A stretch of DNA of 64,000 nt from NCBI GenBank assembly GCA_039636795.1, contig CP143430.1, positions 3,224,001 through 3,288,000 on the forward strand. Reading direction: 5' to 3'. The position numbers and the translations under genes were made by a program. The DNA comes from Micrococcaceae bacterium Sec5.1. Lineage in GTDB: Bacteria > Actinomycetota > Actinomycetes > Actinomycetales > Micrococcaceae. Below, piece by piece: positions 37,134 to 50,586 of this stretch (its first letter is position 1; each line of letters starts with the position of its first letter). The notes below the pieces were generated by a model, which saw only the letters and a program-made list of their open reading frames with translations, had not been told where the DNA came from and searched no databases.

Positions 37134-38096
37134 CTACTTCAGGCTTCCCATGGTGACGCCGGAGCGCCAATAGCGTTGCATGGCAATCATGAGGACGATC
37201 ATGGGAATGGTGGAGACGAGGGATCCTGTGATCACAAGACCGGTCAGGTCATACTGGCTGTCAGTTCCGCGCTCAAGCCATGAATAGAGTCCGAGCATCA
37301 CAGGCCATTTATCTGCGCCCTTGAGGAAGACCAGAGGCCACATGAACGTGTTCCAGGAAGCCACAAAGTGAAGGAGAAATATTGTTGCACCTGCAGTTGT
37401 CATGAGCCTGAGACCGAGGGAGAAGAAGATCCTGTACTCACCAGCGCCGTCGATCCTCGCCGCTTCCATGAGTTCACTGGGGACTGCTCCCTCGGCGTAT
37501 ACCTTCGCCAAGTAGACGGAAAACGAGCCGAACATACCGGGGAGGATCATTGCCCAGATCGTGTCGTAGATACCCATCTGCGTGAAGAGCACAAAAGAGG
37601 GGACGATCATGAGGGTTCCCGGAATGAGGAACGAACCGATAATGAGGCCCATGGTGAACCCTCGCCCTAAATAGCGGTACTTGGCGATGGCATAACCCGC
37701 TGCCAAGGCAACCAACGTCAATCCGACTGAGCCCAGGGTGGCGTAGACCACGGTGTTCCAGAGCCATCGGGCGAAGATGCCGTCCTGATAAGTGAAAAGG
37801 TCCGAGAGGGTGTCCAGGAGACTGAATTCCCCAAACCACATGCCGTTGGTTGTGTACAGCTCTTCTTTCGACTTCGTCGATGCCACGATGAGCCACCACA
37901 GCGGGCCCGCGGAGTAGATGGCCAGGAAAGCCAGAATTCCCAGCATGACCCAGCGGGAGACTCCCACAGCCTCGTTCGCGGATCGCTGTACATTTGGATT
38001 TCGCCTCCGCTTGCGGGGGAAACGAGCAGGGTGGGGCGTGTCTGCTCCTTCAGGGACTGTCCCGCTCACCGCGGGCCGCAATGATGCCTGGGTCAT
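37134..38096 (-). CDS. Carbohydrate ABC transporter permease (MalG-type, CUT1)
   Basis: The 320-residue protein has six membrane segments and the EAA loop EAARIDGAGEYRIFFSLGLRL, which contacts the ATPase. The N terminus is a 45-residue basic extension (FPRKRRRNPNVQRSANEAV). The last gene of a minus-strand operon, it overlaps the second permease by four bases. No ATPase gene is present, so a shared MsiK-like ATPase is likely, as usual for CUT1 importers in actinobacteria. Confidence 0.93.
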   Translation of the reverse strand: MTQASLRPAVSGTVPEGADTPHPARFPRKRRRNPNVQRSANEAVGVSRWVMLGILAFLAIYSAGPLWWLIVASTKSKEELYTTNGMWFGEFSLLDTLSDLFTYQDGIFARWLWNTVVYATLGSVGLTLVALAAGYAIAKYRYLGRGFTMGLIIGSFLIPGTLMIVPSFVLFTQMGIYDTIWAMILPGMFGSFSVYLAKVYAEGAVPSELMEAARIDGAGEYRIFFSLGLRLMTTAGATIFLLHFVASWNTFMWPLVFLKGADKWPVMLGLYSWLERGTDSQYDLTGLVITGSLVSTIPMIVLMIAMQRYWRSGVTMGSLK

Positions 38097-39091
38097 GACT
38101 CGATCCTGTTCGTAAAGCGGTAAATGATGGTCGAAACGATGCCCACCACGACTCCCAGCACGATTGAGAGTGCCGTGGCGTAGTTGATGTTTCCCACTTG
38201 GAAGGCCTGGTTGTAGATCATCATGGCGGGCGTGAAGTCCTTGGTTATGGTCTCCGGAGTGACGGCTCGGAAGAGAAGTGGCTCGTTGAAGATCTGGAGC
38301 GTTCCGATGATTGCCAGCAGGCTTGTCAGAACGAGGGAGCCCCGAAGGAACGGCACCTTAATGTCCATGGCGATTCGCAGTTCCCCGGCGCCGTCGATCC
38401 GGGCGGCTTCGAAAATTTCATGGGGGATCGACTGAAGGGAGCCGTACATGATGAGCATGTTGAACCCGATGCCGCCCCAGATTGCCAGGTTCCCGATTGA
38501 TGACCATATGGTGTTGCCGGCGAAGAAGTTTACCTGCACCCCGAACACCTGGAGGAAGTCACTCAGTGGCCCAACAACAGGGCTGTAAAGAAAGATCCAG
38601 ACCATGGTGGCCACCAGCCCTGGGACCATGTAGGGGAGCAGCAGTACGATCCTGAACCTCGCCGCGACCCGCCGCCGAACGCCGTCGAGCACCAAAGCCA
38701 TGGCGAGGCTGACCAATTGTCCAAGCGGTACGACGATGATCGCGTAGATGAACACACGAAACATTCCAGCCCAGAAGGACGTGTCCGCGAGGGCTTCGGC
38801 AAAGTTGTCAAAGCCAACAAAGGTTGACGTTGCTTTGCCGAAGCCGAGCCCGGATGTCTTGGTTGCAAAAACGCTTTCCTTGAGTGCCATCGCGACAGGA
38901 ACGAGGGTAAACAAAGCAAACCCGAGGAGGAAAGGCAGGCTAAGGGACGCACCTTTCAGGTCCTGCTTTACGCGCCACCCGGATCGTGCCCGAAGGGCTG
39001 GTCCGTCCATGCCACCGCTGTTTTTCTTCCGGGTCGTGTTTCCACGAGGGGACCGGCGTCGCTTGGTTGCTGCCTGGATAGTTGCTGTCAT
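38093..39091 (-). CDS. Sugar ABC transporter permease (MalF-type, CUT1)
   Basis: The 332-residue permease has six membrane helices, the EAA motif EAARIDGAGELRIAMDIKVPFLRG and an N-terminal cytosolic basic segment (KRRRSPRGNTTRKKN). Partner of the MalG-type permease. It starts 33 bases after the binding-protein gene. Confidence 0.93.
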   Translation of the reverse strand: MTATIQAATKRRRSPRGNTTRKKNSGGMDGPALRARSGWRVKQDLKGASLSLPFLLGFALFTLVPVAMALKESVFATKTSGLGFGKATSTFVGFDNFAEALADTSFWAGMFRVFIYAIIVVPLGQLVSLAMALVLDGVRRRVAARFRIVLLLPYMVPGLVATMVWIFLYSPVVGPLSDFLQVFGVQVNFFAGNTIWSSIGNLAIWGGIGFNMLIMYGSLQSIPHEIFEAARIDGAGELRIAMDIKVPFLRGSLVLTSLLAIIGTLQIFNEPLLFRAVTPETITKDFTPAMMIYNQAFQVGNINYATALSIVLGVVVGIVSTIIYRFTNRIES

Positions 39092-39123
39092 GAAGTCCTC
39101 CTGCTCTCAATGCACCGCAGCCG

Positions 39124-40452
39124 TTAGCTGCCGGTGGTGAATGAGATGCCCTTCTTTTCCAGGTCCGAGGTCACGAAGTTCTGGACATTCTTCAGTGCCT
39201 CGCTCAACTTAATCTGGCCCGCCACGGCCTTGCCCCATTGATCCTGCAACTCCGGGAACCACGCATCGTAGTTCGGTCCCAGCTCAAATTTGCCTACCGT
39301 AGCCTTCTGGGCCTCCACCATGACTTCTGCAGCTTTCGTGTCGTCGACGAAGAAGCCCTTAGGGATGACATCCTTGACGTACGGGGACGGGTCCTTCAGG
39401 GAGGAAGGCAGGCCTACGGAACCAGTTTTCGGGTTTTTGCCCGCTTGGATACCTTCGGGCGTGGCCAGCCAGTCTGCGTACTTGACCACAGCTTCGGGGG
39501 AGTCGCAGCCAACGGGGACAAAGCTTGGAGTCGATCGGCCTGGAGTAGCCTTCTTGTCGGAACTGAATTGCGGGATCTCCACTGCCTCCCAGTGGCCTGA
39601 GGTGGCGGGAAAGTTCGTTTTGTAGCCAGTTAGCGACCACCATTGCGTGGTTGTGGAGGCCATCTTGCCTGAGTCGAAGTACGAGTACAGGGCAGGCCTA
39701 TCCTTATAGGTCTGATTTGAGACGAAGTCGTTGTCGATAAGTTGCTGAATGATGTCGGCCGCCGCCATCGTGGCCTTGTCGGTAAAGTTGACCTTCCATT
39801 TGTCCCCGTCTATCGCGAACCACTCCGCGCCGCCCTGCTGGGCCAGGTTCATCAGGGTACTCGGGTCCTCACCGGCGAGGTTGGTGACGTCAACGCCGTT
39901 GGCTTTGAAGATTTTGCCGGCGTCCACGAATTCCTGCCATGTGGCGGGTATCTTCACTCCGTATTTGTCGTACGTGTCCTTGTTGACGATCATGAACTGC
40001 CCGTCAGATCCGGAGGGAAGACCGTAGTAGCGGTCATTCACCTTAGCCGCGGCCTTGGCACCGTCGTTGTAGATGTCCTCGGTAGGAGTGACAGCATCAG
40101 TGATGTCCTGGGCCCAGCCGTTGACCACCATCGTGGTCAACGGCGCGAAACCCTGAACCAGGCATGGAACATCGCTCTTGGCTTCCATGGCATTCCGGAA
40201 ATTTGTTTGGGTAGCGGTGTTGGAGGCCTGGAGAACGTAGTTGACCTTAACATCGCTCTGTGCGGCGTTGAACGCGTCCGCTATCTGCTTACCCGTTTCG
40301 GCATTCCAACCCCACACGTCAATCGTGACCGGGCCCGACCGGGCCTCTGGGGCTGCCGGTGAGGCAGAGCCCCCGCCGCATGCCGAAAGTAAAGCGGCTG
40401 AGGCTAGGACGGCAGCACTCAAAGTGACCCGCCTGCGATGTGTGAACTTCAT
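39124..40452 (-). CDS. ABC transporter sugar-binding lipoprotein
   Basis: The 442-residue exported solute-binding protein has signal KFTHRRRVTLSAAVLASAALLSACGGG with lipobox LSAC. SBP family 1 features follow, for example VTIDVWGWNAETGKQIADAFNAAQ. The ligand is unknown; no glycosidase is nearby to suggest one. ATG 40452 is preceded on the minus strand by AAAGGAGAG. The promoter region carries a perfect LacI-type operator (40580-40591). Confidence 0.92.
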   Translation of the reverse strand: MKFTHRRRVTLSAAVLASAALLSACGGGSASPAAPEARSGPVTIDVWGWNAETGKQIADAFNAAQSDVKVNYVLQASNTATQTNFRNAMEAKSDVPCLVQGFAPLTTMVVNGWAQDITDAVTPTEDIYNDGAKAAAKVNDRYYGLPSGSDGQFMIVNKDTYDKYGVKIPATWQEFVDAGKIFKANGVDVTNLAGEDPSTLMNLAQQGGAEWFAIDGDKWKVNFTDKATMAAADIIQQLIDNDFVSNQTYKDRPALYSYFDSGKMASTTTQWWSLTGYKTNFPATSGHWEAVEIPQFSSDKKATPGRSTPSFVPVGCDSPEAVVKYADWLATPEGIQAGKNPKTGSVGLPSSLKDPSPYVKDVIPKGFFVDDTKAAEVMVEAQKATVGKFELGPNYDAWFPELQDQWGKAVAGQIKLSEALKNVQNFVTSDLEKKGISFTTGS

Positions 40453-40547
40453 ATGTCTCTCCTTTGAGGTGGTACGAAAGGTGGGGAAAGGGCCCGTTCC
40501 CCACATGACTAAGGCGCGGGCGAACTGGACAGGAAATCGTTATCCCA

Positions 40548-41145: not shown

Positions 41146-41738
41146 AATTCATCCCTTCCACGTCTGGGCGACCGGCATTCCCAGGGCTTCAAACCCGTCC
41201 CTCCTGGGAATGACCAAGTGACCGCTCGGGGCAAACTTTTACATAGACTTGGCCGCGATTTAGACCGCGTCGTGCCCGTGTGCCAGATCCACTAACAACA
41301 CTGACCCTAAGCGCGACGCGTCACCTTTGGTTTTTACGCGGCTTTTGGAAGAGATTTTCGCTGGTATCAATTTTTGCCCTTTTCGCGGCTCTTTTTTCAA
41401 GAATCGATTTTCCCGATTTTTTGGCACTAATATTTCTGGGGGACTTACCGGCCACAGGAATCACGCCTTTCTGAACGCTATCTAGCAATCACCATACCGA
41501 CTTTAATTTTTAAAGCCAGTCCGCGGTTTGGTGGATATTTCTGCAAGCTACTCGTAGACAAGACTTTCGAAAAATTTATCGCAGACTTCAACACCAAGGA
41601 GCCGACGTTGCCAGCCGGGCGCACGGACAACCACCGGGCCGCTAAGGGCAGCACGCCGTCCAGTCCCACCTGGTGCAGGCAAGCCCCTTCTGCCCCCGTG
41701 CCTTTAACGCCGATAATCTACATTATGTAAAGTTGAAC
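41146..41738. other. 593-base non-coding, locally AT-rich stretch left of the integrase
   Basis: No gene is supported. 41310-41440 is clearly richer in A and T than its surroundings, with recurring T-runs next to GCG (for example TTTTTACGCGGCTTTT and CCTTTTCGCGGCTCTTTT). A frame is open from 41431 to 41730 on the plus strand but has no usable start codon and no recognisable sequence. TACATTATGTA (41719-41729) is a perfect short palindrome 30 bases (centre to centre) upstream of the palindrome over the integrase start. Confidence 0.6.
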
Positions 41739-41763
41739 AGTGATTATTGCATCTGATGCATGA
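41739..41763 (+). repeat. Element repeat, left copy (over integrase start)
   Basis: This 25-base segment is repeated at 48074-48098 with 23 of 25 bases identical, in direct orientation. It contains the palindrome TGCATCTGATGCA (41748-41760) overlapping the ATG of the integrase gene by one base. It may be an operator for the small helix-turn-helix protein of the module or part of the element end. Confidence 0.75.
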
Positions 41764-42878
41764 TCACCTCTCCTCCGCCCGACGCGGTCGATTCAGCGGG
41801 ACGGGTGCTCGACTTCGGCGCTGTGAGTTTCCTTCACCCGGAAGACTACGTGTTCACCCAGATGCTCACTGGCTGGCGTAACCAGCAGTTGAGCCGGAAC
41901 CTGGCGTTTGGCACCATCGAGGGCCGGGAACGGCTAGTGACGCGGTTCCAGGAGTCCACCAACGAGTATCCATGGCAATGGACGCCGGCCCACGTTGACG
42001 AGTTCTTCGGGGATCTTCGCAGCGTGAAGCGCGCCGCGCAATCCACCATCCGGAGCTACCAGGCAGCGCTGAGGGCGTTCTGCTCCTACGCGGCGTCGCC
42101 TGAGTATGGCTGGGACCGGGTCTGCGAACAGTACTTCGGAACACACCCTTCGCAGGTCTGCTTTGACTGGAACACCGCGGTCCATGCGCAGGCGACAGAA
42201 TCCACTCCTTTCCGGCGCCCATTTACCAGGCAGGAGTTACAGGCCTTCTTTGACCGAGCCGATGACGAGGTGGACCGGATCGCGACTCTGGGCCGCAAGG
42301 GCTGGTTGCCGGCCTACCGCGACGCTGTCCTGTTCAAGGTGGTCTACAGCTGGGGCCTGCGACGCAATGAGGTCAGACACCTGCAGACCGTGGATTTTGC
42401 CCGGAACCCGCACGCCCGGGAATTCGGCAAGTACGGAGTGCTGCAGGTCCGCTATGGGAAAGCCGTGAAAGGGTCTCCCCCGAAACGGCGCAGCGTCCTG
42501 ACGGTGTTTGACTGGTCGGCGGAGATCATCGCAGACTGGCTGGAACGCGGCCACCCCTACATGACCGACGGGCTGGACCTGTTCCCCTCCGAACGCGGCA
42601 CTTTGGTTTCCGAGACTGCGCTGAATCGCAGGTTCAACCGGTACTGCCAAGATCTGGGCCTCTCCCCCGGCCTGGACATCCACTCGCTGCGCCGCTCCTA
42701 CGTCACCCACCTCATCGAAGCCGGCTTGGACCCCCTGTTCGTCCAGCACCAGGCTGGACACGAGCACGCCTCGACCACGGCCCTCTACACGTCGGTTTCC
42801 AGAGATTACCGGGTCAAGACACTGCGCCGGGCCCTGGACTCCACCGTCCGGGACGCCCTTGCCGGAATGGAAGACTGA
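41760..42878 (+). CDS. Tyrosine recombinase/integrase (module gene 1)
   Basis: The 372-residue site-specific recombinase has a core-binding domain (about 55-115, VKRAAQSTIRSYQAALRAFCSY) and a catalytic domain with the full set: Arg201 (SWGLRRNEVRHL), Lys in the beta-hairpin YGKAVKGSPPKRRSV, His308 and Arg311 (DIHSLRRSYVTH), His334 (QAGHEHAS) and nucleophile Tyr343 (TALYTSV). It should be active. The ATG at 41760 lacks a Shine-Dalgarno sequence and sits at the edge of a palindrome. It is followed after five bases by the helix-turn-helix gene. The 5' region repeats 6.3 kb away. Confidence 0.92.
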   Translation: MITSPPPDAVDSAGRVLDFGAVSFLHPEDYVFTQMLTGWRNQQLSRNLAFGTIEGRERLVTRFQESTNEYPWQWTPAHVDEFFGDLRSVKRAAQSTIRSYQAALRAFCSYAASPEYGWDRVCEQYFGTHPSQVCFDWNTAVHAQATESTPFRRPFTRQELQAFFDRADDEVDRIATLGRKGWLPAYRDAVLFKVVYSWGLRRNEVRHLQTVDFARNPHAREFGKYGVLQVRYGKAVKGSPPKRRSVLTVFDWSAEIIADWLERGHPYMTDGLDLFPSERGTLVSETALNRRFNRYCQDLGLSPGLDIHSLRRSYVTHLIEAGLDPLFVQHQAGHEHASTTALYTSVSRDYRVKTLRRALDSTVRDALAGMED

Positions 42879-42883
42879 ACCCC

Positions 42884-43216
42884 ATGAAACGAGAGATCGA
42901 CTACCGGTGGCGACTCGCCGAACTCATGGCAGCCCGCGGACTGCACAACAGCACCGACCTGGGCCCGCTGCTAAAAGAACGCGGCATCGAACTCTCGGCC
43001 TCCCAGGTATACCGGCTGGTCACGCAACGCCCGGAACGCGTCTCAGTTATGATGGTCGCCGCCCTCTGCGACATCTTCTCCTGCGGTCCCGAAGACCTGG
43101 TCACCGTCACGGCAACAGACGCCAAAGTCCGCAAGGTCGCCTCCGACACCAACGTCGTGGACCTGAACAAGACCATCCGCCCCAAGCGCGCCCGCGTGAT
43201 CCGCGATGACGGCTGA
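42884..43216 (+). CDS. Small XRE-type helix-turn-helix protein (module gene 2)
   Basis: The 110-residue protein has a Cro/C1-type helix-turn-helix (RLAELMAARGLHNSTDLGPLLKERGIELSASQVYRLVTQRPERVSVMMVAALCDIF) where SASQVYRLV is the recognition helix. A short basic tail ends KTIRPKRARVIRDDG. It lies between the integrase and the zinc-ribbon protein and overlaps the latter's start by 11 bases, so the three genes are translated as one unit. It could be the element's regulator or a directionality factor. Confidence 0.85.
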   Translation: MKREIDYRWRLAELMAARGLHNSTDLGPLLKERGIELSASQVYRLVTQRPERVSVMMVAALCDIFSCGPEDLVTVTATDAKVRKVASDTNVVDLNKTIRPKRARVIRDDG

Positions 43217-44729
43217 GACCATCCCCCGGCCTGGCGTCCGCGGCCGACCCCGCACCGCAGGCAACTTCACCTGCGACAGATGCTCACGAGCAGCCGGCAA
43301 ACACCGCACCAGCTGGCCTGAAGGCAGGATCTGCGGAACCTGCTTCACGATCGCCATGCGCACGCACGGACCCTGCCCCGGCTGCCAAACCGCGCGCATG
43401 CTTCCCGGGCGGTCCGCTGCCCACGGCGACCAACCTGTCTGCGTCGATTGCGCGGGTATCACCCAGGATTACCACTGCTCACACTGCGGCACGGAAACCG
43501 AGCACTACCGCCAGAACACTTGCGCACGCTGCTCGCTTCGGGATGACCTCACCGTCCTGTTGCGCGTCGACGAGGCCCCGGGATCGGAAACGACGGCGAC
43601 CAAACTGCTCGGCGCTCTCTGCGGAGCCCAGCGCCCCGAAAGCATCCTGACCTGGCTGCGCAGGGCCAGCGTTCGCGACCTGCTTTCACGCCTCGCCACC
43701 GGAGGCATCCACCTCAGCCACGAAGCGCTCGACAAGGAACCCAACAGCCTGCGCGTGGAACACCTACGCAGCCTACTCACCCACCACCAGCTACTCCCTG
43801 CCCGGGACCACTACCTTGCTCTCTTCGAGCGGTGGCTACCCACCAAGCTCGACGCTATCGATGATCCCGAGATTCGGCGGCCCATCGAGTCCTTCGCCCG
43901 CTGGCACCACCTGCGACGCATCAGGAACATATCCGTGAACGGGAAGCCCACTAGGGGCCCGGTGCACAGTGCGAAGCAGGAAATCACCGAAACCATCAAG
44001 TTCCTCACTTGGCTCAAACTCACCCACGGACGGACCGCAGCCTCGTGCGTTCAAGCTGACGTCGACGCGTGGCTGGCGGACGGCCCGACCACCGGGCACG
44101 CCATCAGAACCTTCTTCGTCTGGGCTGTCGAGAACCGGACCTGCGCCAACATCACGATCGGTTTTCGGCAGGCCAAGACCACGCCGCTGCTCACCCAGGG
44201 GCAACGGCTCTCCATGCTCAAAGCCTGCCTCGCGGACGACATCGACACATTGCCCTATCGGGTCGCCGCAATTCTCCTGCTGCTCTACGCCCAGCCAGTA
44301 GTGAAGATCGCCGCGATGAAGAGCACCGACGTGATCCTCACGCCCGAGGGCCTGCGCCTGTCACTCGGGGAAGAACACGCAGCGCCAGTACCCGAACCCT
44401 TCGCCGCCCTCCTCGCACAACACCTGGCCTCCCGCCCCAACATGCGCACAGGGAGCAGTTCTGGCAGCCAGTGGCTGTTCCCCGGCTACCGGCCCGGGCA
44501 ACACATCCACCCCAACACCCTCATGGAAAGGCTCCGGGAAAACGGCATCAACCTCCTCGGCGCACGCAACGCATCCCTGCGCGCGCTCGTCAAGGAAGTG
44601 CCCGCCCCGCTCGTCGCAGAAATGCTTGGCTACAGCTACCAAGTCACACAAAAACACGCTGCAGCAGCGGCGGGCCAATGCCAGCTCTACGCGCCCAGCC
44701 GAGCGCCTGCCCGACAGACTGCCACTTGA
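43206..44729 (+). CDS. Zinc-ribbon protein with degenerate tyrosine-recombinase fold (module gene 3)
   Basis: The 507-residue protein has six CxxC pairs in the first 110 residues (Cys23/26, 43/46, 57/60, 79/82, 91/94, 106/109), making three zinc ribbons. A core-binding-like helical region follows (HSAKQEITETIKFLTWLKLTHGR, about 255-290) and a C-terminal region shaped like a recombinase catalytic domain. The active-site residues are absent: YAQPVVKIAAM where LRxxEL is expected, LLGARNASLRAL for HxLRH, MLGYSYQ for LGH, and HAAAA where the nucleophile Tyr should be. It probably binds DNA or the active integrase rather than cutting DNA. A diverged paralogue lies at 45295-46755. Confidence 0.85.
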   Translation: MTAETIPRPGVRGRPRTAGNFTCDRCSRAAGKHRTSWPEGRICGTCFTIAMRTHGPCPGCQTARMLPGRSAAHGDQPVCVDCAGITQDYHCSHCGTETEHYRQNTCARCSLRDDLTVLLRVDEAPGSETTATKLLGALCGAQRPESILTWLRRASVRDLLSRLATGGIHLSHEALDKEPNSLRVEHLRSLLTHHQLLPARDHYLALFERWLPTKLDAIDDPEIRRPIESFARWHHLRRIRNISVNGKPTRGPVHSAKQEITETIKFLTWLKLTHGRTAASCVQADVDAWLADGPTTGHAIRTFFVWAVENRTCANITIGFRQAKTTPLLTQGQRLSMLKACLADDIDTLPYRVAAILLLLYAQPVVKIAAMKSTDVILTPEGLRLSLGEEHAAPVPEPFAALLAQHLASRPNMRTGSSSGSQWLFPGYRPGQHIHPNTLMERLRENGINLLGARNASLRALVKEVPAPLVAEMLGYSYQVTQKHAAAAAGQCQLYAPSRAPARQTAT

Positions 44730-44747
44730 ATTCCGGCAGCCTGGGAC

Positions 44748-44981
44748 TCACCATCCCATGTCACGGGCAACCTCTGCGCGTGCGACGTCGATCTGCGTCT
44801 GGGTGACACCAGGTATGTCCGTCTCAGTTTCAATGCGAGTCAGGAGATCCGCCAAGGCCTGTTTCTCCGCCGGGTGCGTTATCGGCACCGAGTTCAGATC
44901 AACCGACATGAGCCAGTCGTAGAGAACAACAACGTCCGCGCGCCAGAGATTGACGCTAACAGTTGGTATCGAAGGATCCAT
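44748..44981 (-). CDS. Small conserved-looking hypothetical protein
   Basis: The 77-residue protein MDPSIPTVSVNLWRADVVVL... has a compact amphipathic pattern (DVVVLYDWLMSVDLNSVPITH, then KQALADLLTRIETETDIP and VTQTQIDVARAEVARDMGW). Codon use fits coding sequence. It lies just after the zinc-ribbon gene on the opposite strand, 18 bases away, so it is probably part of the element. I do not recognise a family. Confidence 0.7.
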   Translation of the reverse strand: MDPSIPTVSVNLWRADVVVLYDWLMSVDLNSVPITHPAEKQALADLLTRIETETDIPGVTQTQIDVARAEVARDMGW

Positions 44982-45048
44982 TTACCAAACTCCCCACCTC
45001 TAGTCCGCCCCAAATGGAGGACGCTAGAACAGAATAGTTTGGAATCGA

Positions 45049-45080
45049 ATACGCACGGTTACCAGTAGTACTCTGCGTAT
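45049..45080. repeat. Candidate recombination site: inverted arms ATACGCA/TGCGTAT
   Basis: ATACGCA (45049-45055) and TGCGTAT (45074-45080) flank an 18-base spacer starting CGGTTACCAGTAG. Similar sequence recurs at 48048-48070 and at about 48594-48619 (AATCGAATATGCACCGTTAC), near element boundaries. Two inverted arms around a spacer is the usual plan of a tyrosine-recombinase crossover site. The similarity is imperfect. Confidence 0.45.
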
Positions 45081-45294
45081 CTCATCAGATGAATCATTCG
45101 GGCCCTCTCCCGCAGAGTTCCGCACCAAGCGTTCGAGGCCCTCTGCGCCGCAGCATTCAGGGGTTTTGTCCGAGTCCAATCGATGTTCCCAGCCATGACT
45201 GGGCGGGACGGCTCGCAACACTGTCCGCGGCCGGCCCCGGACTACCGGCTCCGTCCAGTGCCCCCGGTGCGGCCGCAACGCCGGCAAAACCAGG

Positions 45295-46755
45295 GTGATC
45301 TGGCCGGAAGGCAAGATCTGCGGTCCTTGCTTCACCGTGGCCACCCGCACCCGCGGCACATTCCCAGGCTGCGGGCAGCACAGGTTGCTCCCTGGCCCAC
45401 CCGAACAGGATGGAGGACCGCGGTGCGCCCCGTGCGCCGGTATCCTTAACGACTTCCGCTGCGCCCGCTGCAGCCGCGAAGGTGAGTTCTACCGCCGCGG
45501 CATCTGCGCCCGCTGCGCGCTCAGGGACGACCTCACCGCCCTGCTGCTCACGAACCCGGCTGATCCGACAACCGCCCTCCGCCTGATCGATGTCCTCTGT
45601 CAGGCCGATAGACCGGAAAGCATCATCACCTGGAAACGCGCCGCCAAAGTCCAGACGCTCCTGACCTCTGTCTCGAGCGGCAACACTCCCCTGACCCACG
45701 AAGGCCTCGACAGTCACCGCGAAACGGCGGGACGGGCAGTCGACCATCTCCGGGCGCTACTCGTGCATCACGGGCTCCTCCCCCACCAGGACCCCTATCT
45801 GATTCGCTTCGAAGCCTGGATCGATGACAAGCTGCGCCCCCTTCCGGCCGAAGTTGCCAAACCCGTCGAGCACTTCGCCAAATGGCACCACCTCCGACGC
45901 ATCCGCGCCATGGCAACGCCGGACAAACCGGCCCAGCGCCCGGTGCACTCCGCCAAACAGGAGATCACTGAAACCATCAAGTTCCTCGACTGGCTCTGGC
46001 AGACCCACCAACGCACCGCCGCCAGCTGCGCCCAGCAGGACGTGGACACCTGGCTCACAACCGGACCGACCACCAGAAAAGCTATCCGGACCTTCTTCAT
46101 CTTCGCGAAAAAGACCGGCACAAACATGCGCGTCGAAATCGGCCACTACACAGCTAAGAGCCGACCTGCCCTCCCGCAGGAACAACGCCTTGCCTGGCTA
46201 AAGGAACTGCTCACCGGCACCAGCGAATCCGGGCCCTACCGAGTCGCCGGAGTACTGCTCCTCCTCTATGCCCAGCCCCTGGTCCGGGTGGCCGCCCTCC
46301 GTATCGACGCGGTCAGCATCAACGACACCACCGGCGCGATCAGGATCTCCTTTGGCACACACCCAGTTCCGGTCCCGCAGCCCTTCGCGGAACTCCTCAA
46401 CCAGTATCTCCGGAACCGCCCCAACCTCCGAACAGCATCACCCGGGGACAGCCAATGGCTTTTCCCCGGAACCCGGGCAGGTCAGCACCTCCACCCAAAC
46501 ACCATCATGGATAGACTCCGCAGCCTCGGACTGGACCTGCTCGGCGCACGGAATGCGGCCCTGGACGAGCACCTCTCCGTCACCCCGCCACCACTGGTCG
46601 CCGACGCGCTCGGCTACAGCTATCAAGTCGCGTTCCTCCACGCAGACGCCGCAGGAGACGCATGGTCCCGCTACGTCGACCAGCGGACTGAACCCCGAAT
46701 GAACCGAGGAACCCGATTTTCAACCGAGGCGGAAATCGGACGCGAAGAACCCTAA
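45295..46755 (+). CDS. Second copy of the zinc-ribbon/degenerate-recombinase protein, 5' end damaged
   Basis: The 486-residue product aligns over its length with the protein at 43206-44729: WPEGKICGPCF, PESIITWKRAAKVQTLL, HFAKWHHLRRIRAM, HSAKQEITETIKFLDWLW, QWLFPG and LGARNAALDEHL. In-frame coding similarity continues upstream of the GTG at 45295 (from about 45220: VRGRPRTTG, then CPRC), but no start codon exists before the TGA at 45196-45198. ATG 45195, placed like the paralogue's start, is in another frame. One zinc cysteine is replaced by Phe (TFPGC). No integrase or helix-turn-helix gene precedes this copy. It is probably a decaying duplicate; the GTG 45295 form would lose one zinc ribbon. 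Confidence 0.75.
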   Translation: MIWPEGKICGPCFTVATRTRGTFPGCGQHRLLPGPPEQDGGPRCAPCAGILNDFRCARCSREGEFYRRGICARCALRDDLTALLLTNPADPTTALRLIDVLCQADRPESIITWKRAAKVQTLLTSVSSGNTPLTHEGLDSHRETAGRAVDHLRALLVHHGLLPHQDPYLIRFEAWIDDKLRPLPAEVAKPVEHFAKWHHLRRIRAMATPDKPAQRPVHSAKQEITETIKFLDWLWQTHQRTAASCAQQDVDTWLTTGPTTRKAIRTFFIFAKKTGTNMRVEIGHYTAKSRPALPQEQRLAWLKELLTGTSESGPYRVAGVLLLLYAQPLVRVAALRIDAVSINDTTGAIRISFGTHPVPVPQPFAELLNQYLRNRPNLRTASPGDSQWLFPGTRAGQHLHPNTIMDRLRSLGLDLLGARNAALDEHLSVTPPPLVADALGYSYQVAFLHADAAGDAWSRYVDQRTEPRMNRGTRFSTEAEIGREEP

Positions 46756-46826
46756 GCAAATGAACATTGCCCCCCACAAATACGCTCTTTGCACCGAAGA
46801 TGTGAGCAATTGGAAGCCAGGGTGAT

Positions 46827-48041
46827 TCACCAGTCCCGCGCGCCTTCAACTGCGGAGAGAAGAGCCGATCGCTCAGCCACGAGAGAACGGCCCAGCTCCA
46901 GTTCCCGCTCAGTGATAACTGTGTTGAGTGCGGCGAACAACTCCTCGCGCTCCTCCGTCTCGATGAACGGGGACCGCCCATCGAGGCGATTGAACGCCAG
47001 CGCATATTCGCGCCCGAGTTCCATCAAACGGGCCAAGGTGGACTCATCTGACTGAGGGCCGATCACAGCGAGAACTTCGCGCCGCGTCTTCTTGAATTGT
47101 TCGACAGCTTTCTTAAAGCGGGCTGCCGTAATGTGCTCGCGCCCGTCCCAGTCGCGAAGCGGGTTCTCAAGATTCTCTTGCACCCACTCGGGTTTGCGTG
47201 CCTTCGAGATGTTGACACTCGTGCCGTTAACCACCTCTGACCGCCACCGGGCCCGCATCGCAAGGGCGTACTCGTGAGGCACGCTGTGTAAGTCGAGGTA
47301 TTCCAGATCGGGAACTTCGACCGGAAGCACGCAGTCAGCTTTCGTCATGCCGAATAAGTCGGAGATGAAAAGGCCCTTGAGCGAGCTGAGCCGGTTGAGT
47401 TTGCCCGCGTTCGCGAACTGCCCGAGGCTTCCGCCGAGCGTCAGACTTGTCAGGTTGGGGAAGATGGCTGTGAGCCGGTCGCCGTCTACGTCGGACAGAC
47501 CCGTCGCCTTGAGTCTACGTACCGCGTTTTGAGACGGTGCGCCGTCGGCGAGGGCCTGCTCAAGTTCCGCAGGGGTCAGTTCGAGCGCGCCTGTTTCTTG
47601 CCAGTCACGTTCGCCCCGGTCCCACGCGCGTTGTCGGGCAAGTTGGTCACCCACGCGCCAGCGGCTGGTGTAGCTATTCGACCGTTGATCGTGCACCAGT
47701 GGCAGCCTGCCGAGGACTCGATAACCCCGAGGGAGCACCCAGTCGTAGTTGGCGTGGGACAAGCTCCCGTTCCAGGAACGGTGGGTGAGCCGGAGCGGCT
47801 CAACTTCACCCAAGTCATCTGTTGTGGACGGCTCGGGACCCGACCAATCGAGTTCGAGCACCCCGACCTTCTTCCAATCGGGGTCGATATTCGTGACCTG
47901 GGCAGCGACCCACTCACCAACAAGGTCGTTCGGGCGGACGACGATGTCCCCGACGCTCAGGGGGCGCGGCGGACCGTCCGAAGTTGTTGGTGACACGGTG
48001 GCAATCCTACGGATCATCTGGAAATACTCAAACGAATACAC
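46827..48041 (-). CDS. Leucine-rich-repeat-like hypothetical protein (island cargo)
   Basis: The 404-residue protein has an N-terminal SH3-like or Tudor-like beta domain (LSVGDIVVRPNDLVGEWVAAQVTNIDPDWKKVGVLELDW). Its middle section has leucine-rich-repeat rhythm (FPNLTSLTLGGSLGQFANAGKLNRLSSLKGLFISDLFGM, VPDLEYLDLHSV). A long C-terminal helical region follows (ARFKKAVEQFKKTRREVLAVI ... LGREYALAFNRLDG). No signal peptide or membrane segment is seen. It lies inverted between the damaged module copy and the module remnant, so it reads as passenger DNA. Function unknown; a defence role is only a guess. An internal ATG at 48017 (MIRRIATV) could be the start. Confidence 0.75.
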   Translation of the reverse strand: MYSFEYFQMIRRIATVSPTTSDGPPRPLSVGDIVVRPNDLVGEWVAAQVTNIDPDWKKVGVLELDWSGPEPSTTDDLGEVEPLRLTHRSWNGSLSHANYDWVLPRGYRVLGRLPLVHDQRSNSYTSRWRVGDQLARQRAWDRGERDWQETGALELTPAELEQALADGAPSQNAVRRLKATGLSDVDGDRLTAIFPNLTSLTLGGSLGQFANAGKLNRLSSLKGLFISDLFGMTKADCVLPVEVPDLEYLDLHSVPHEYALAMRARWRSEVVNGTSVNISKARKPEWVQENLENPLRDWDGREHITAARFKKAVEQFKKTRREVLAVIGPQSDESTLARLMELGREYALAFNRLDGRSPFIETEEREELFAALNTVITERELELGRSLVAERSALLSAVEGARDW

Positions 48042-48047
48042 CCGAAC

Positions 48048-48070
48048 GTGATACGCAGAGGTGCCAGTAG
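48048..48070 (+). repeat. Degenerate copy of the candidate recombination-site sequence
   Basis: GATACGCAGAGGTGCCAGTAG resembles the sequence at 45048-45069 (16 of 23 aligned bases). Its first 11 bases, GATACGCAGAG, are the exact reverse complement of CTCTGCGTATC at 45071-45081. It lies immediately before the direct repeat at 48074. Confidence 0.4.
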
Positions 48071-48073
48071 AAG

Positions 48074-48098
48074 AGTGATTATTGCATCCGATGTATGA
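48074..48098 (+). repeat. Element repeat, right copy
   Basis: This segment matches 41739-41763 at 23 of 25 bases, including the palindrome (TGCATCCGATGTA) and the ATG that follows. Here the ATG opens a remnant of module gene 3 rather than an integrase. Confidence 0.75.
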
Positions 48099-48334
48099 CG
48101 ACCTGGCTCCGCAAAACCCGTGTCCGTGAACTGCTCGACCGACTTGCCACCGGCGAGATTCCGCTCAGTCACGAGCCGCTGGACATGGAATCCAACAACC
48201 TGCGGGTGGCTCAAAAGCACGCCGCTGCCGCGGCAGAACCCCGGTCCCAGTACGCGTTCCCCGGACGGGTAGGCTCTCAGAAAACGCAAAAAGGAGTGAG
48301 ATGCCCGCGGCAACCCTCTTCGGCCTGGTCTTGA
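48095..48334 (+). pseudogene. Doubly deleted remnant of the recombinase module
   Basis: Residues 3-38 (TWLRKTRVRELLDRLATGEIPLSHEPLD...NNLRV) match residues about 154-190 of the intact zinc-ribbon protein (TWLRRASVRDLLSRLATGGIHLSHEALD...NSLRV). The next residues (AQKHAAAAAE) match its C terminus (TQKHAAAAAG), so some 270 codons are missing between. Upstream sequence and ATG match the integrase 5' end, so integrase, helix-turn-helix gene and the N-terminal third of gene 3 are missing too. After about 48245 there is no similarity. It is the scar of a former third copy of the module. Confidence 0.8.
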
Positions 48335-48533
48335 CGGGTGTCGGAATCTTTACCCTCTTCATATCCCGTTGTTTCACCAATCGCATAGCGCGATTTCGAT
48401 CCGAATGGTTTCAACCCAACCTCGACCGAACGGCACTCCACGGCGACATCTCCGCATCATCAGAATCATGGCAACATGCTGGGTTGCGCTCGGGTTCGGA
48501 TTCATCGTCACTGGTCTAATCCTGGGACGCTAG
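48301..48533 (+). pseudogene. Small two-helix membrane protein, apparently frameshifted
   Basis: ATG 48301 follows AAAAAGGAGTGAG, a good ribosome-binding site, and encodes a first membrane helix (ATLFGLVLTGVGIFTLFIS). That frame ends without a second helix at 48519. A second hydrophobic segment (WVALGFGFIVTGLILGR, stop at 48531-48533) is encoded in another frame from about 48450. The pair looks like one two-helix protein split by an indel. Family not recognised. Confidence 0.5.
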
Positions 48534-48647
48534 AACGATTTCCTAAGCCGAGTCCCGCCTAGTGCTGGCAACAAACGACGGAGAATTAGTCGCAATCGAA
48601 TATGCACCGTTACCGGTAAAGGAAGAAGGCGACCCCCCCACTAGTGC

Positions 48648-49502
48648 CTATCCAGCGCGCGACCCGGCCTGTTTCATTCCTGACTGAACTTCCACCAGCT
48701 CAGCCAACACCCCTGTGCAACGGAGGCAGTCGTCCAAGTGGCGGCGCACTTTCTCCTGGGCGGCCTGGCGCACGGCACTTCGGACGTATTTGCCTAGATA
48801 GCGCGAGAAGTCTGCGCATGGGTCGGTGGCAGCGTCCTTCACATGTTCCTGCAGGTATGCCTGACGGAGACCCTCCCGCGCTCTGATGAGCAATGACGAC
48901 ACAGCGTTTGGAGTCAGTTCCATAGCCCGTGCCGCTGCAGCCGGCTTCATGCCCTCAACGTCCACATGCCAAAGTACGGCCTGCCAGCGGGATGGCAAGG
49001 AACGGAAAGCCAGCATCAGGATCGTATTCTCGAAGTCTTTGAGAACAGGATCATCATCATTGCCAACCACCACTTCAACCGCAGCGCTACTCACCGTCGC
49101 CGCCGCTCGTCTGCTTTGCAGATTGCGACGGTGCGACATTCGCCGAACGGTGGTCAACAGATATGACCTGAACGAGTCCACCGGTCCCCTGCCCTGAAGC
49201 AGGGATTTTAGGATCGATACAAACGCATCGGATACCACGTCGTCAGCGTCCGTTGGATTATCCGATTCAGTCCGGGCAACATAAGTGGCAATGACTTGAT
49301 GCCGGCGGAAAAGTTCCTCGTAGGATCCGGAGTCTCCCCCGCGCACGGAAGCAACCAGGTATGTGTCACTCTCGCCAGCAACTAACGCATGTGTGCCCAC
49401 TCCCCTCCCCTGCTGACTTTGTGCAGGTTTCAGTAGCACTTGTACTTGCTGAACCGTCGTGGAAGATTGGACGCGGCCGAACGGCAGGACGGGAGCAAGC
49501 AT
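48648..49502 (-). CDS. Sigma-70 family (ECF-like) factor with C-terminal zinc finger, probably truncated
   Basis: The 284-residue product contains sigma region 2 (LVASVRGGDSGSYEELFRRHQVIATYVARTESDNPTDADDVVSDAFVSILKSL). Region 4 follows (LPSRWQAVLWHVDVEGMKPAAAARAMELTPNAVSSLLIRAREGLRQAY). An anti-sigma type zinc finger (CADFSRYLGKYVRS ... RRHLDDCLRCTGVLAEL) then stops shortly after at EVQSGMKQAGSRAG. Relatives normally continue past the finger into a membrane segment and an extracellular part; the stop lies just beyond the island's right end, so the 3' part may have been lost. Start at 49502 is uncertain: GTG 49400, after GGGGAGGGGA, would remove a 34-residue tail lacking similarity. Confidence 0.8.
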   Translation of the reverse strand: MLAPVLPFGRVQSSTTVQQVQVLLKPAQSQQGRGVGTHALVAGESDTYLVASVRGGDSGSYEELFRRHQVIATYVARTESDNPTDADDVVSDAFVSILKSLLQGRGPVDSFRSYLLTTVRRMSHRRNLQSRRAAATVSSAAVEVVVGNDDDPVLKDFENTILMLAFRSLPSRWQAVLWHVDVEGMKPAAAARAMELTPNAVSSLLIRAREGLRQAYLQEHVKDAATDPCADFSRYLGKYVRSAVRQAAQEKVRRHLDDCLRCTGVLAELVEVQSGMKQAGSRAG

Positions 49503-49602
49503 GGCTGCCTTCCAGAGTGTTTGAGTGGTGACGCCTAGAATCTAGGCAGCAAGTGATTGGTCACACTCAAAACGCAGGCAAATTGTTGGAAGTAGATGTT
49601 CC

Positions 49603-50586
49603 ATGCAGGATTTCGACTTTGATGAACGGGATCTCAGGCTCCTGCATGCCCTTCAAATCCGCCCCCGCGCACCATGGACAGCCTTGGCACCCGCCGTTGG
49701 TGCCGATGCCGTCACCTTGGCCCGGCGCTGGAATTTTCTTTCCGCGGAAGGGCTGGCATGGGTAGCGACCTACCGTGGCCTCGGTTCCAAAGTCGCCTTT
49801 GCCCTGGTGGAAGTTGAGTGCGCGCCTGCCAGCATGGCAACCGTGACCGAAGAGCTTGCGGCCGATCCGGATGTGCTCTCAATGGATCACACCGCAGGTG
49901 GCAGGGACATGGTCATCACTGTCGTGAGCCGCGATGAAGCCTCCCTCGGACGATTCATTTTGGACCGCTTGCCAGCCGTCAAAGGAATTCGCAGTACAAG
50001 AACCCATCCCGGTATCAACCTTCTTGCGGACGCCCGGGCTTGGCGCTTGCGCTCCTTGCGGGACGACGAGGTAAAACTCATAGAGCGCGAAGCACCTCCA
50101 CCAAGTCCCGCCGCGAAAGGCGCATCCGCAGACCTGGAAGAGCAACTTTTTTGGATCCTGCGCTCTGATGGTCGAGCCTCGATAACTGAAATATCCCAAA
50201 AGTTGGGAATCAGCCCTCCGCGCGCGAAAGCCGCTTTAAGCGCGGCCCTTGCACAGGATCGGATCGTTGTCCGGCTCGAAATCGCCCGTACATTGTCGCC
50301 TTGGCCCGTAAACGTTTGGTACTTCCTCCGCGTCCCAGCCACGCAGGTGGAGGCAGTGGGTGGCCGGTTGGTCGGTCTCGGAGAAGTGCGTCTGGTCGTC
50401 ACCACAGGCGGTCTGTATTCGATTGTGATCGCGGTGTGGCTTCGCCGCCTTGAGGACATGACCATCCTCGAACGGCAACTGGGCGAAAAGTTGCCCATGG
50501 TGGAGATCATGGACCGTTCAGTCGTCTTGCGGACGCCAAAGCATGTTGGCGTCCGGTTGGACCCCTCTGGTCGCCGCATTATGTAA
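49603..50586 (+). CDS. Lrp/AsnC family regulator with duplicated units
   Basis: The 327-residue protein contains two tandem Lrp-like units. Unit 1: helix-turn-helix (DERDLRLLHALQIRPRAPWTALAPAVGADAVTLARRWNFL) and ligand-binding sheet (VAFALVEVECAPASMATVTEELAADPDVLSMDHTAGGRDMVITVV). Unit 2 begins at about 183 (LEEQLFWILRSDGRASITEISQKLGISPPRAKAAL) with a second effector sheet. Ligand unknown. It is divergent from the sigma factor gene and converges with a glyoxalase-fold gene across a strong hairpin. Confidence 0.9.
   Translation: MQDFDFDERDLRLLHALQIRPRAPWTALAPAVGADAVTLARRWNFLSAEGLAWVATYRGLGSKVAFALVEVECAPASMATVTEELAADPDVLSMDHTAGGRDMVITVVSRDEASLGRFILDRLPAVKGIRSTRTHPGINLLADARAWRLRSLRDDEVKLIEREAPPPSPAAKGASADLEEQLFWILRSDGRASITEISQKLGISPPRAKAALSAALAQDRIVVRLEIARTLSPWPVNVWYFLRVPATQVEAVGGRLVGLGEVRLVVTTGGLYSIVIAVWLRRLEDMTILERQLGEKLPMVEIMDRSVVLRTPKHVGVRLDPSGRRIM

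Follow-up and report, generated by a model that had tools for sequence, protein, structure and literature searches.

The 64,000-nucleotide stretch of DNA analysed here (the window; Micrococcaceae bacterium Sec5.1, contig CP143430.1, positions 3,224,001 to 3,288,000) very probably carries three stacked members, E1, E2, and E3, of a transposon family of soil actinobacteria whose target is the edge of dif, the site at which linked chromosome copies are parted in bacteria. As read from the sequence, a full unit consists of a tyrosine recombinase or integrase (gene 1), a small helix-turn-helix (HTH) protein (gene 2), and a zinc-ribbon protein with a predicted recombinase fold (gene 3), between defined ends. 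The left end of one clade, A, lies 12 bp outward from the 6-bp centre of dif on the XerD side, and that of a second, clade B, in the same register on the XerC side. The module in the window starts directly after the chromosomal dif, an association overlooked in an earlier note on this DNA, which had described a three-gene mobile module.

The window dif, which lies directly before E1, reads CGCCGATAA-TCTACA-TTATGTAAA. Nowhere else in the 5,426,886-bp genome does a sequence come within one mismatch of its pattern, and a tighter pattern matches once each in 76 of 81 genomes of the genus; the five genomes without a match are 68, 90, 95, 82, and 100% complete. The parts available of PMC5357621 give the architecture of dif as two 11-bp arms around a 6-bp centre, and the window site resembles the suggested Frankia alni dif, CACGCCGATAATGCACATTATGTCAAGT, as quoted in PMC3025954. 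The terminus was not apparent from GC skew, sampled in 20 stretches.

In a first scan, many loci with 1.5 kb or less of upstream sequence seemed free of dif, and longer upstream stretches were then used. There were 72 full trios, 59 of them with at least 420 bp upstream, and 49 of these were distinct. A fixed 250-bp slice upstream of the integrase, placed after distances had been seen, held a dif-like site with no more than three mismatches in 35 of the 49 distinct trios (22 exact), compared with 0 of 189 control slices, the best of which had at least five mismatches. The window and two further loci (L005 and L006) have an exact dif-like site outside the slice, at 109, 544, and 482 bp from the integrase match, which gives 38 of 49 overall. 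A chance match to dif was considered and rejected.

Chromosomal dif loci were viewed in 60 genomes of the genus and in the window. With end motifs that were picked after part of these 61 loci had been seen, an A-type end was found within 60 bp on the XerD side at 24, of which 14 have a trio gene, and a B-type end on the XerC side at 10, of which 6 have gene matches on that side; 28 have an end of either type. L229, where the trio next to dif has a different kind of end, is outside the 24. Among 11,063 control slices, the A motif occurred in 6 and the B motif in 17. At loci L178, L176, L181, L182, L204, L210, L212, L220, and L228, element ends stand beside dif with no trio genes; these look like decayed or non-autonomous copies, and L178 resembles a fused left and right end. 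The earlier note had proposed a comparison of occupied and empty flanks, and empty sites do exist: dif is empty on both sides at L217, carries an A element at L218, and has a B element on the opposite side at L219. The right junction at L218 reads GCCAG/TAAGCAGAATCCGGCTCC, and its counterpart at L217 is TTATGTAAAG/TAACTGTAATTCGGCTCC (the slash marks the junction).

Clade A was found on the XerD-arm side of dif and clade B on the XerC-arm side, and at three loci (L008, L011, and L073) elements of both clades share one dif. Side clusters in the gene-1 tree and in the gene-3 tree: for each label, none of 500 shuffles reached so low a value. One dif-less row falls in the same group as the 11 B rows. 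The register was compared over 40 positions in seven groups, in each of which one element occurs at two or three dif-like sites. Counted outward from the 6-bp centre, differences reach position 12 in four groups (three of clade A and one of clade B); in the other three, where host bases agree, they reach 11, 7, and 0. No group differs beyond position 12. The exact junction base rests on this multisite comparison, because the empty-site pairs are 83 to 90% identical. The dif centres vary between sites that carry one element, both arms are conserved in most targets, and dif is left intact beside inserted elements; genome G222 carries one element at three sites, and the centre at one of these is that of the chromosomal dif. 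Loci L300 and L071 share a plasmid dif-like site, with a matching left flank and the same 12 host bases; G222 has an A1 element there, and A. agilis has an A3 element. Several dif-like sites with differing centres exist besides the chromosomal dif in G344 (C1:191340 and C2:111838) and G226 (C2:169742), and some of them adjoin element ends.

Element ends were fixed from copies within the same strain that are near-identical inside and different outside. The repeated units measure 4.7 kb in YJN-5, 3.3 kb in A. agilis, 4.0 kb in G226, 3.3 kb in G163 (three copies), and 3.5 kb in CZY1 (an inverted pair), and right ends terminate in CCAG-TA or CCAC-TA irrespective of the left edge. The earlier note had looked to precise target duplications or defined junctions as support; the multicopy groups supply defined ends, but they gave no sign of a target duplication, and a footprint like that of Tn554 or of the strand-biased circularizing integrative elements (SEs) could not be shown. 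Plasmid pA of P. ureafaciens AT holds two head-to-tail units, and a circular record of 4712 bp deposited as plasmid pD (L067, NZ_CP094493.1, 1-4712) equals one pA unit at 100% identity. Its junction is two bases shorter, it has no dif-like site, and none of its six listed genes carries a replication annotation. It looks like an excised circle.

The gene arrangement given in the earlier note, three co-directional genes with a 5-base gap and then an 11-base overlap, is confirmed by the open reading frame (ORF) positions. Gene 1 matches Phage_integrase in Pfam (E 8.6e-18) and is similar to the XerD structure 1a0p (E 1.4e-10). The catalytic residues named in the earlier note (R201, H308, R311, H334, and Y343) are kept, and these and K234 are invariant among 26 aligned gene-1 sequences. 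The further description of the integrase as active stands on these residues, because E1 lacks a leader of about 217 bp between its left end and the integrase, with the native start and the ribosome-binding region. In L008, L011, and L073 this leader has further palindromes and a ribosome-binding sequence and, by our reading, also the native integrase start; the closest database relatives of gene 1 are mostly 365 amino acids long, compared with 372 here. E1 may be impaired. Gene 2 matches HTH_26 (E 1.4e-12), and gene 3 has no Pfam match above the cut-off. Gene 3 lacks most of the usual catalytic residues and has no tyrosine at the usual spacing; its predicted fold and weak profile matches suggest kinship to recombinases. 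The full catalytic set occurs in gene 1 only, no second complete recombinase was found in the stack, and neither gene 1 nor gene 3 has a PADLOC match.

Relatives of gene 3 are present in at least 85 of 295 genomes sampled from the family and in at least 23 of 396 across the phylum (lower bounds, few candidates per genome having been scored), as well as in 242 of 72,556 records of a plasmid collection. At a threshold of at least 400 bits, 82 gene-3 matches lie in the loci used. An HTH gene stands beside 78 of them, and HTH and integrase genes accompany 72 in order, so that the conserved trio that the earlier note had suggested seeking in actinobacterial genomes was found; the remaining 10 include contig ends and decayed copies. 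A wider sample, 18 loci drawn from plasmids and from other families, gave 14 scorable trios, with all three genes and enough upstream sequence (the integrase of L278 is split); 5 of them have an upstream dif-like site with no more than three mismatches (L266, L267, L271 on the opposite strand, L279, and L280); a sixth, L277, has a degenerate site with four mismatches at the usual distance. Genes with SIR2-family, ATP-binding, or ThiF/multiubiquitin domains near some trios (L073, L278, and L283) are candidate cargo, perhaps for defence.

The three elements of the window lie in the same direction behind dif (Table 1); CCAGTA terminates E1 and E2, and CCGGTA terminates E3. No integrase or HTH match was found in E2, whose gene-3 copy matches over 45214-46698 at 54% identity. 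The second gene-3 copy and the remnant of a third that had been reported nearby are both real, but they are better read as three successive stacked insertions of two subtypes than as duplication of one module. Similarly, the trio placed at 41739 to 44981 is real, but the unit is larger (41735 to 45067) and two more elements stand behind it. Other stacks were seen at L186, L221, and L223; repeated insertion at dif, with the newest unit next to dif, is the simplest history. The additional ORFs of E1 and E2 and some of those in YJN-5 and CZY1 have no Pfam match, and two of these have no PADLOC match. To the left of dif, at 37134-40506, translations of the ORFs suggest an ABC transporter for sugars of the ordinary kind, with a binding protein and two permeases.

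TABLE 1 Features of the dif-adjacent stack, in positions of the whole window
Feature	Positions	Strand	Basis
Chromosomal dif, 28-mer, 6-bp centre 41717-41722; target, outside the element	41706..41733	+	Pattern search
Element E1, subtype A1, 3333 bp, directly behind dif	41735..45067	+	Multicopy groups and right-end motif
Gene 1, tyrosine recombinase, 372 aa	41760..42878	+	ORF, Pfam, conserved residues
Gene 2, Cro/C1-type HTH protein, 110 aa	42884..43216	+	ORF, Pfam
Gene 3, zinc-ribbon protein, predicted Xer-like recombinase fold, incomplete catalytic set, 507 aa	43206..44729	+	ORF, predicted fold
Open frame inside E1, ~75 codons, possible cargo, no Pfam match	44757..44981	-	
E1 right end (GGTTACCAG-TA), abuts E2 left end	45057..45067	+	
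Element E2, subtype A2, 3002 bp, no integrase/HTH match	45068..48069	+	
Second gene-3 copy, stop-to-stop frame, first listed start codon 45295	45199..46755	+	
ORF of 404 aa within E2, without a match in Pfam or PADLOC; possible cargo	46827..48041	-	
E2 right end (GAGGTGCCAG-TA), abuts E3 left end	48058..48069	+	
Element E3, A1 remnant, 549 bp, both ends present, gene-3 fragment 48095-48214	48070..48618	+	
Host flank; from 48647 similar to DNA directly beside dif in G354 (L124/L215)	48619..50107	.	

We propose that the recombinase would excise the element, or copy it out as a circle, and insert it immediately beyond a Xer arm, with no duplication of the target. Gene 3, the HTH protein, or both, alone or with bound host XerC/XerD, would recognise dif and position the recombinase; palindromes near the left end are candidate binding sites of the HTH protein. 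New units would enter between dif and older units, and the landing site, on chromosomes and on many plasmids, would stay usable because dif is unbroken. A more specific version, which we put forward tentatively, is that gene 3, as a dead Xer protein, recognises dif or the Xer complex bound there and brings the active integrase to a position one base beyond the arm, the two clades having specialised on opposite arms; mobile DNA would then be directed to the site at which circular replicons resolve their dimers, with no harm to that site. It is also conceivable, if less likely, that the integrase alone, by its descent from XerD, treats one Xer arm as half of its own core site, and that gene 3 and the HTH protein serve in circle formation or regulation and not in targeting. 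Each clade does abut one arm in the same register, and the integrase does resemble XerD, but the conservation of both arms together with a variable centre in most targets favours reading of the whole site and suggests that this site, or a complex bound to it, is what is recognised.

The choice of dif itself would be familiar if host XerC/XerD integrated the elements, with the trio as cargo or regulator, since dif is known to be used in this way by IMEX (the CTX phage, GGI, and LME-1), which, in the portions available of PMC5357621 and PMC9765430, recombine within dif via host Xer using a dif-like site of their own. This is improbable here: the junction is 12 bp out from the centre, a position at which Xer exchanges no strands, the elements encode a complete-looking recombinase, and L069, L070, L071, and L072 have one dif-like site each (no more than three mismatches), none of them at the right end. 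That the dif-like site belongs to the element, for example for multimer resolution, would account for its company with 38 of 49 distinct trios, but it is very improbable given that identical copies have different dif centres and arms, that dif is single in 76 of 81 genomes of the genus and most of the 61 loci have no trio genes beside it, and that neither the circle pD nor the second units of stacks have a dif. Random insertion with survival mainly near dif, as a gene-poor and tolerated region, recalls the 14.2% of 161 Proteobacteria dif-related sequences that flank insertion sequences, transposase genes, or integrase genes (PMC2731167, in the part available); it does not predict the register, which is base-exact on chromosome and plasmids, nor does it sit with the 0 of 189 control slices, and we give it almost no credence.

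Several observations weigh against a transposon family with the edge of dif as its target. The pairs of empty and occupied sites are between species and only 83 to 90% identical, and no empty site was found on plasmids in joined-flank searches for YJN-5 and A. agilis, which returned the source plasmids and one short unrelated-looking match; a left-junction query returned seven plasmids with similar junctions. No dif-like site accompanies 11 of the 49 distinct trios, five of them from one clade (L104, L105, L106, L107, and L109; the others are the second copy of L051, L090, L115, L117, L119, and L121), or 8 of the 14 in the wider sample, including Streptomyces L281 and Mycolicibacterium L283; in view of these dif-less trios, dif targeting is a property of large clades and not of the whole family. 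There is hardly any profile similarity between genes 3 and 1 (probability 1.3), pD is possibly an assembly artefact of the tandem, and both transposition and binding are inferred from sequence. Within the dif-less clade, L104, L105, and L109 have a common left-end sequence like (T)TAGCGTCGGATATTTCAC, perhaps another target or the element's own end.

The Gamma-mobile-trio (GmtX/Y/Z) is, by its name, reportedly also a trio with recombinases. Gene 1 scored 21.4 of 340 bits against GmtY and 13.9 of 600 bits against GmtZ, far below the cut-off, and gene 3 has no match to either model. The trio itself was already reported in 2018, as the XER modules of Antarctic Arthrobacter plasmids, with a tyrosine recombinase (XerD), an XRE-family regulator, a recombinase (XerC), and passenger genes (PMC6305408); the gene order is the same, the two being likened here by description. 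XER modules sit between umuC and umuD, a feature that may not define the group, whereas the window element sits behind dif. The available text on them has nothing on dif, element ends, or empty sites, nor on a third protein without catalysis.

Non-catalytic partners also have precedents in the available sections of PMC10214605. The SEs of Gammaproteobacteria have four genes, intA-tfp-intB-srap, with two RHRY recombinases; their Tfp is a recombinase-fold partner without a catalytic motif, which gene 3 resembles by predicted fold, and they also share translationally close genes, a target preference, and a circle, which is putative here. The elements described here differ in having one complete recombinase with an HTH and a zinc-ribbon protein, in Actinomycetota. 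In SEs a 6-bp footprint passes from the left flank of the donor to the new right end; the right ends seen here are CCAG-TA or CCAC-TA whatever the left edge. GInts (GinA-D, median size 34.9 kb) contain GinC, a recombinase-fold protein that, like gene 3, has no catalytic motif, but they have four genes and not three. Tn554 is likewise a three-protein tyrosine-recombinase transposon with target specificity, but its TnpA and TnpB are both RHRY recombinases, accompanied by TnpC; the three Rit proteins of RIT elements each have a catalytic tyrosine, whereas gene 2 is an HTH protein and gene 3 lacks the usual tyrosine. In the same source, the descriptions of Tn554 and RIT leave dif unmentioned. The earlier note had claimed a separate class: a conserved mobile trio with gene content unlike Tn554 and RIT supports this in part, but Tfp, GinC, and the XER modules are precedents for its parts, and gene 3 is at most a putative obligate and catalytically dead partner.

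Insertion at the edge of dif, if true, explains stacks of mobile DNA that gather at one chromosomal position and gives precise ends to elements that currently carry the label "recombinase XerD" or "hypothetical protein"; the role of recombinase-fold partners without catalysis, an open point for Tfp, becomes testable. We found no report, in open-licence PMC text, of insertion beside dif by self-coded machinery. The trio elements and IMEX are alike as mobile DNA with dif as its address, but the former have their junction 12 bp outside the centre, a recombinase of their own, and a putative circle without dif. Their choice of target would thus be unlike that of IMEX, with self-coded machinery using a nearly universal cell-cycle site as an unbroken address.

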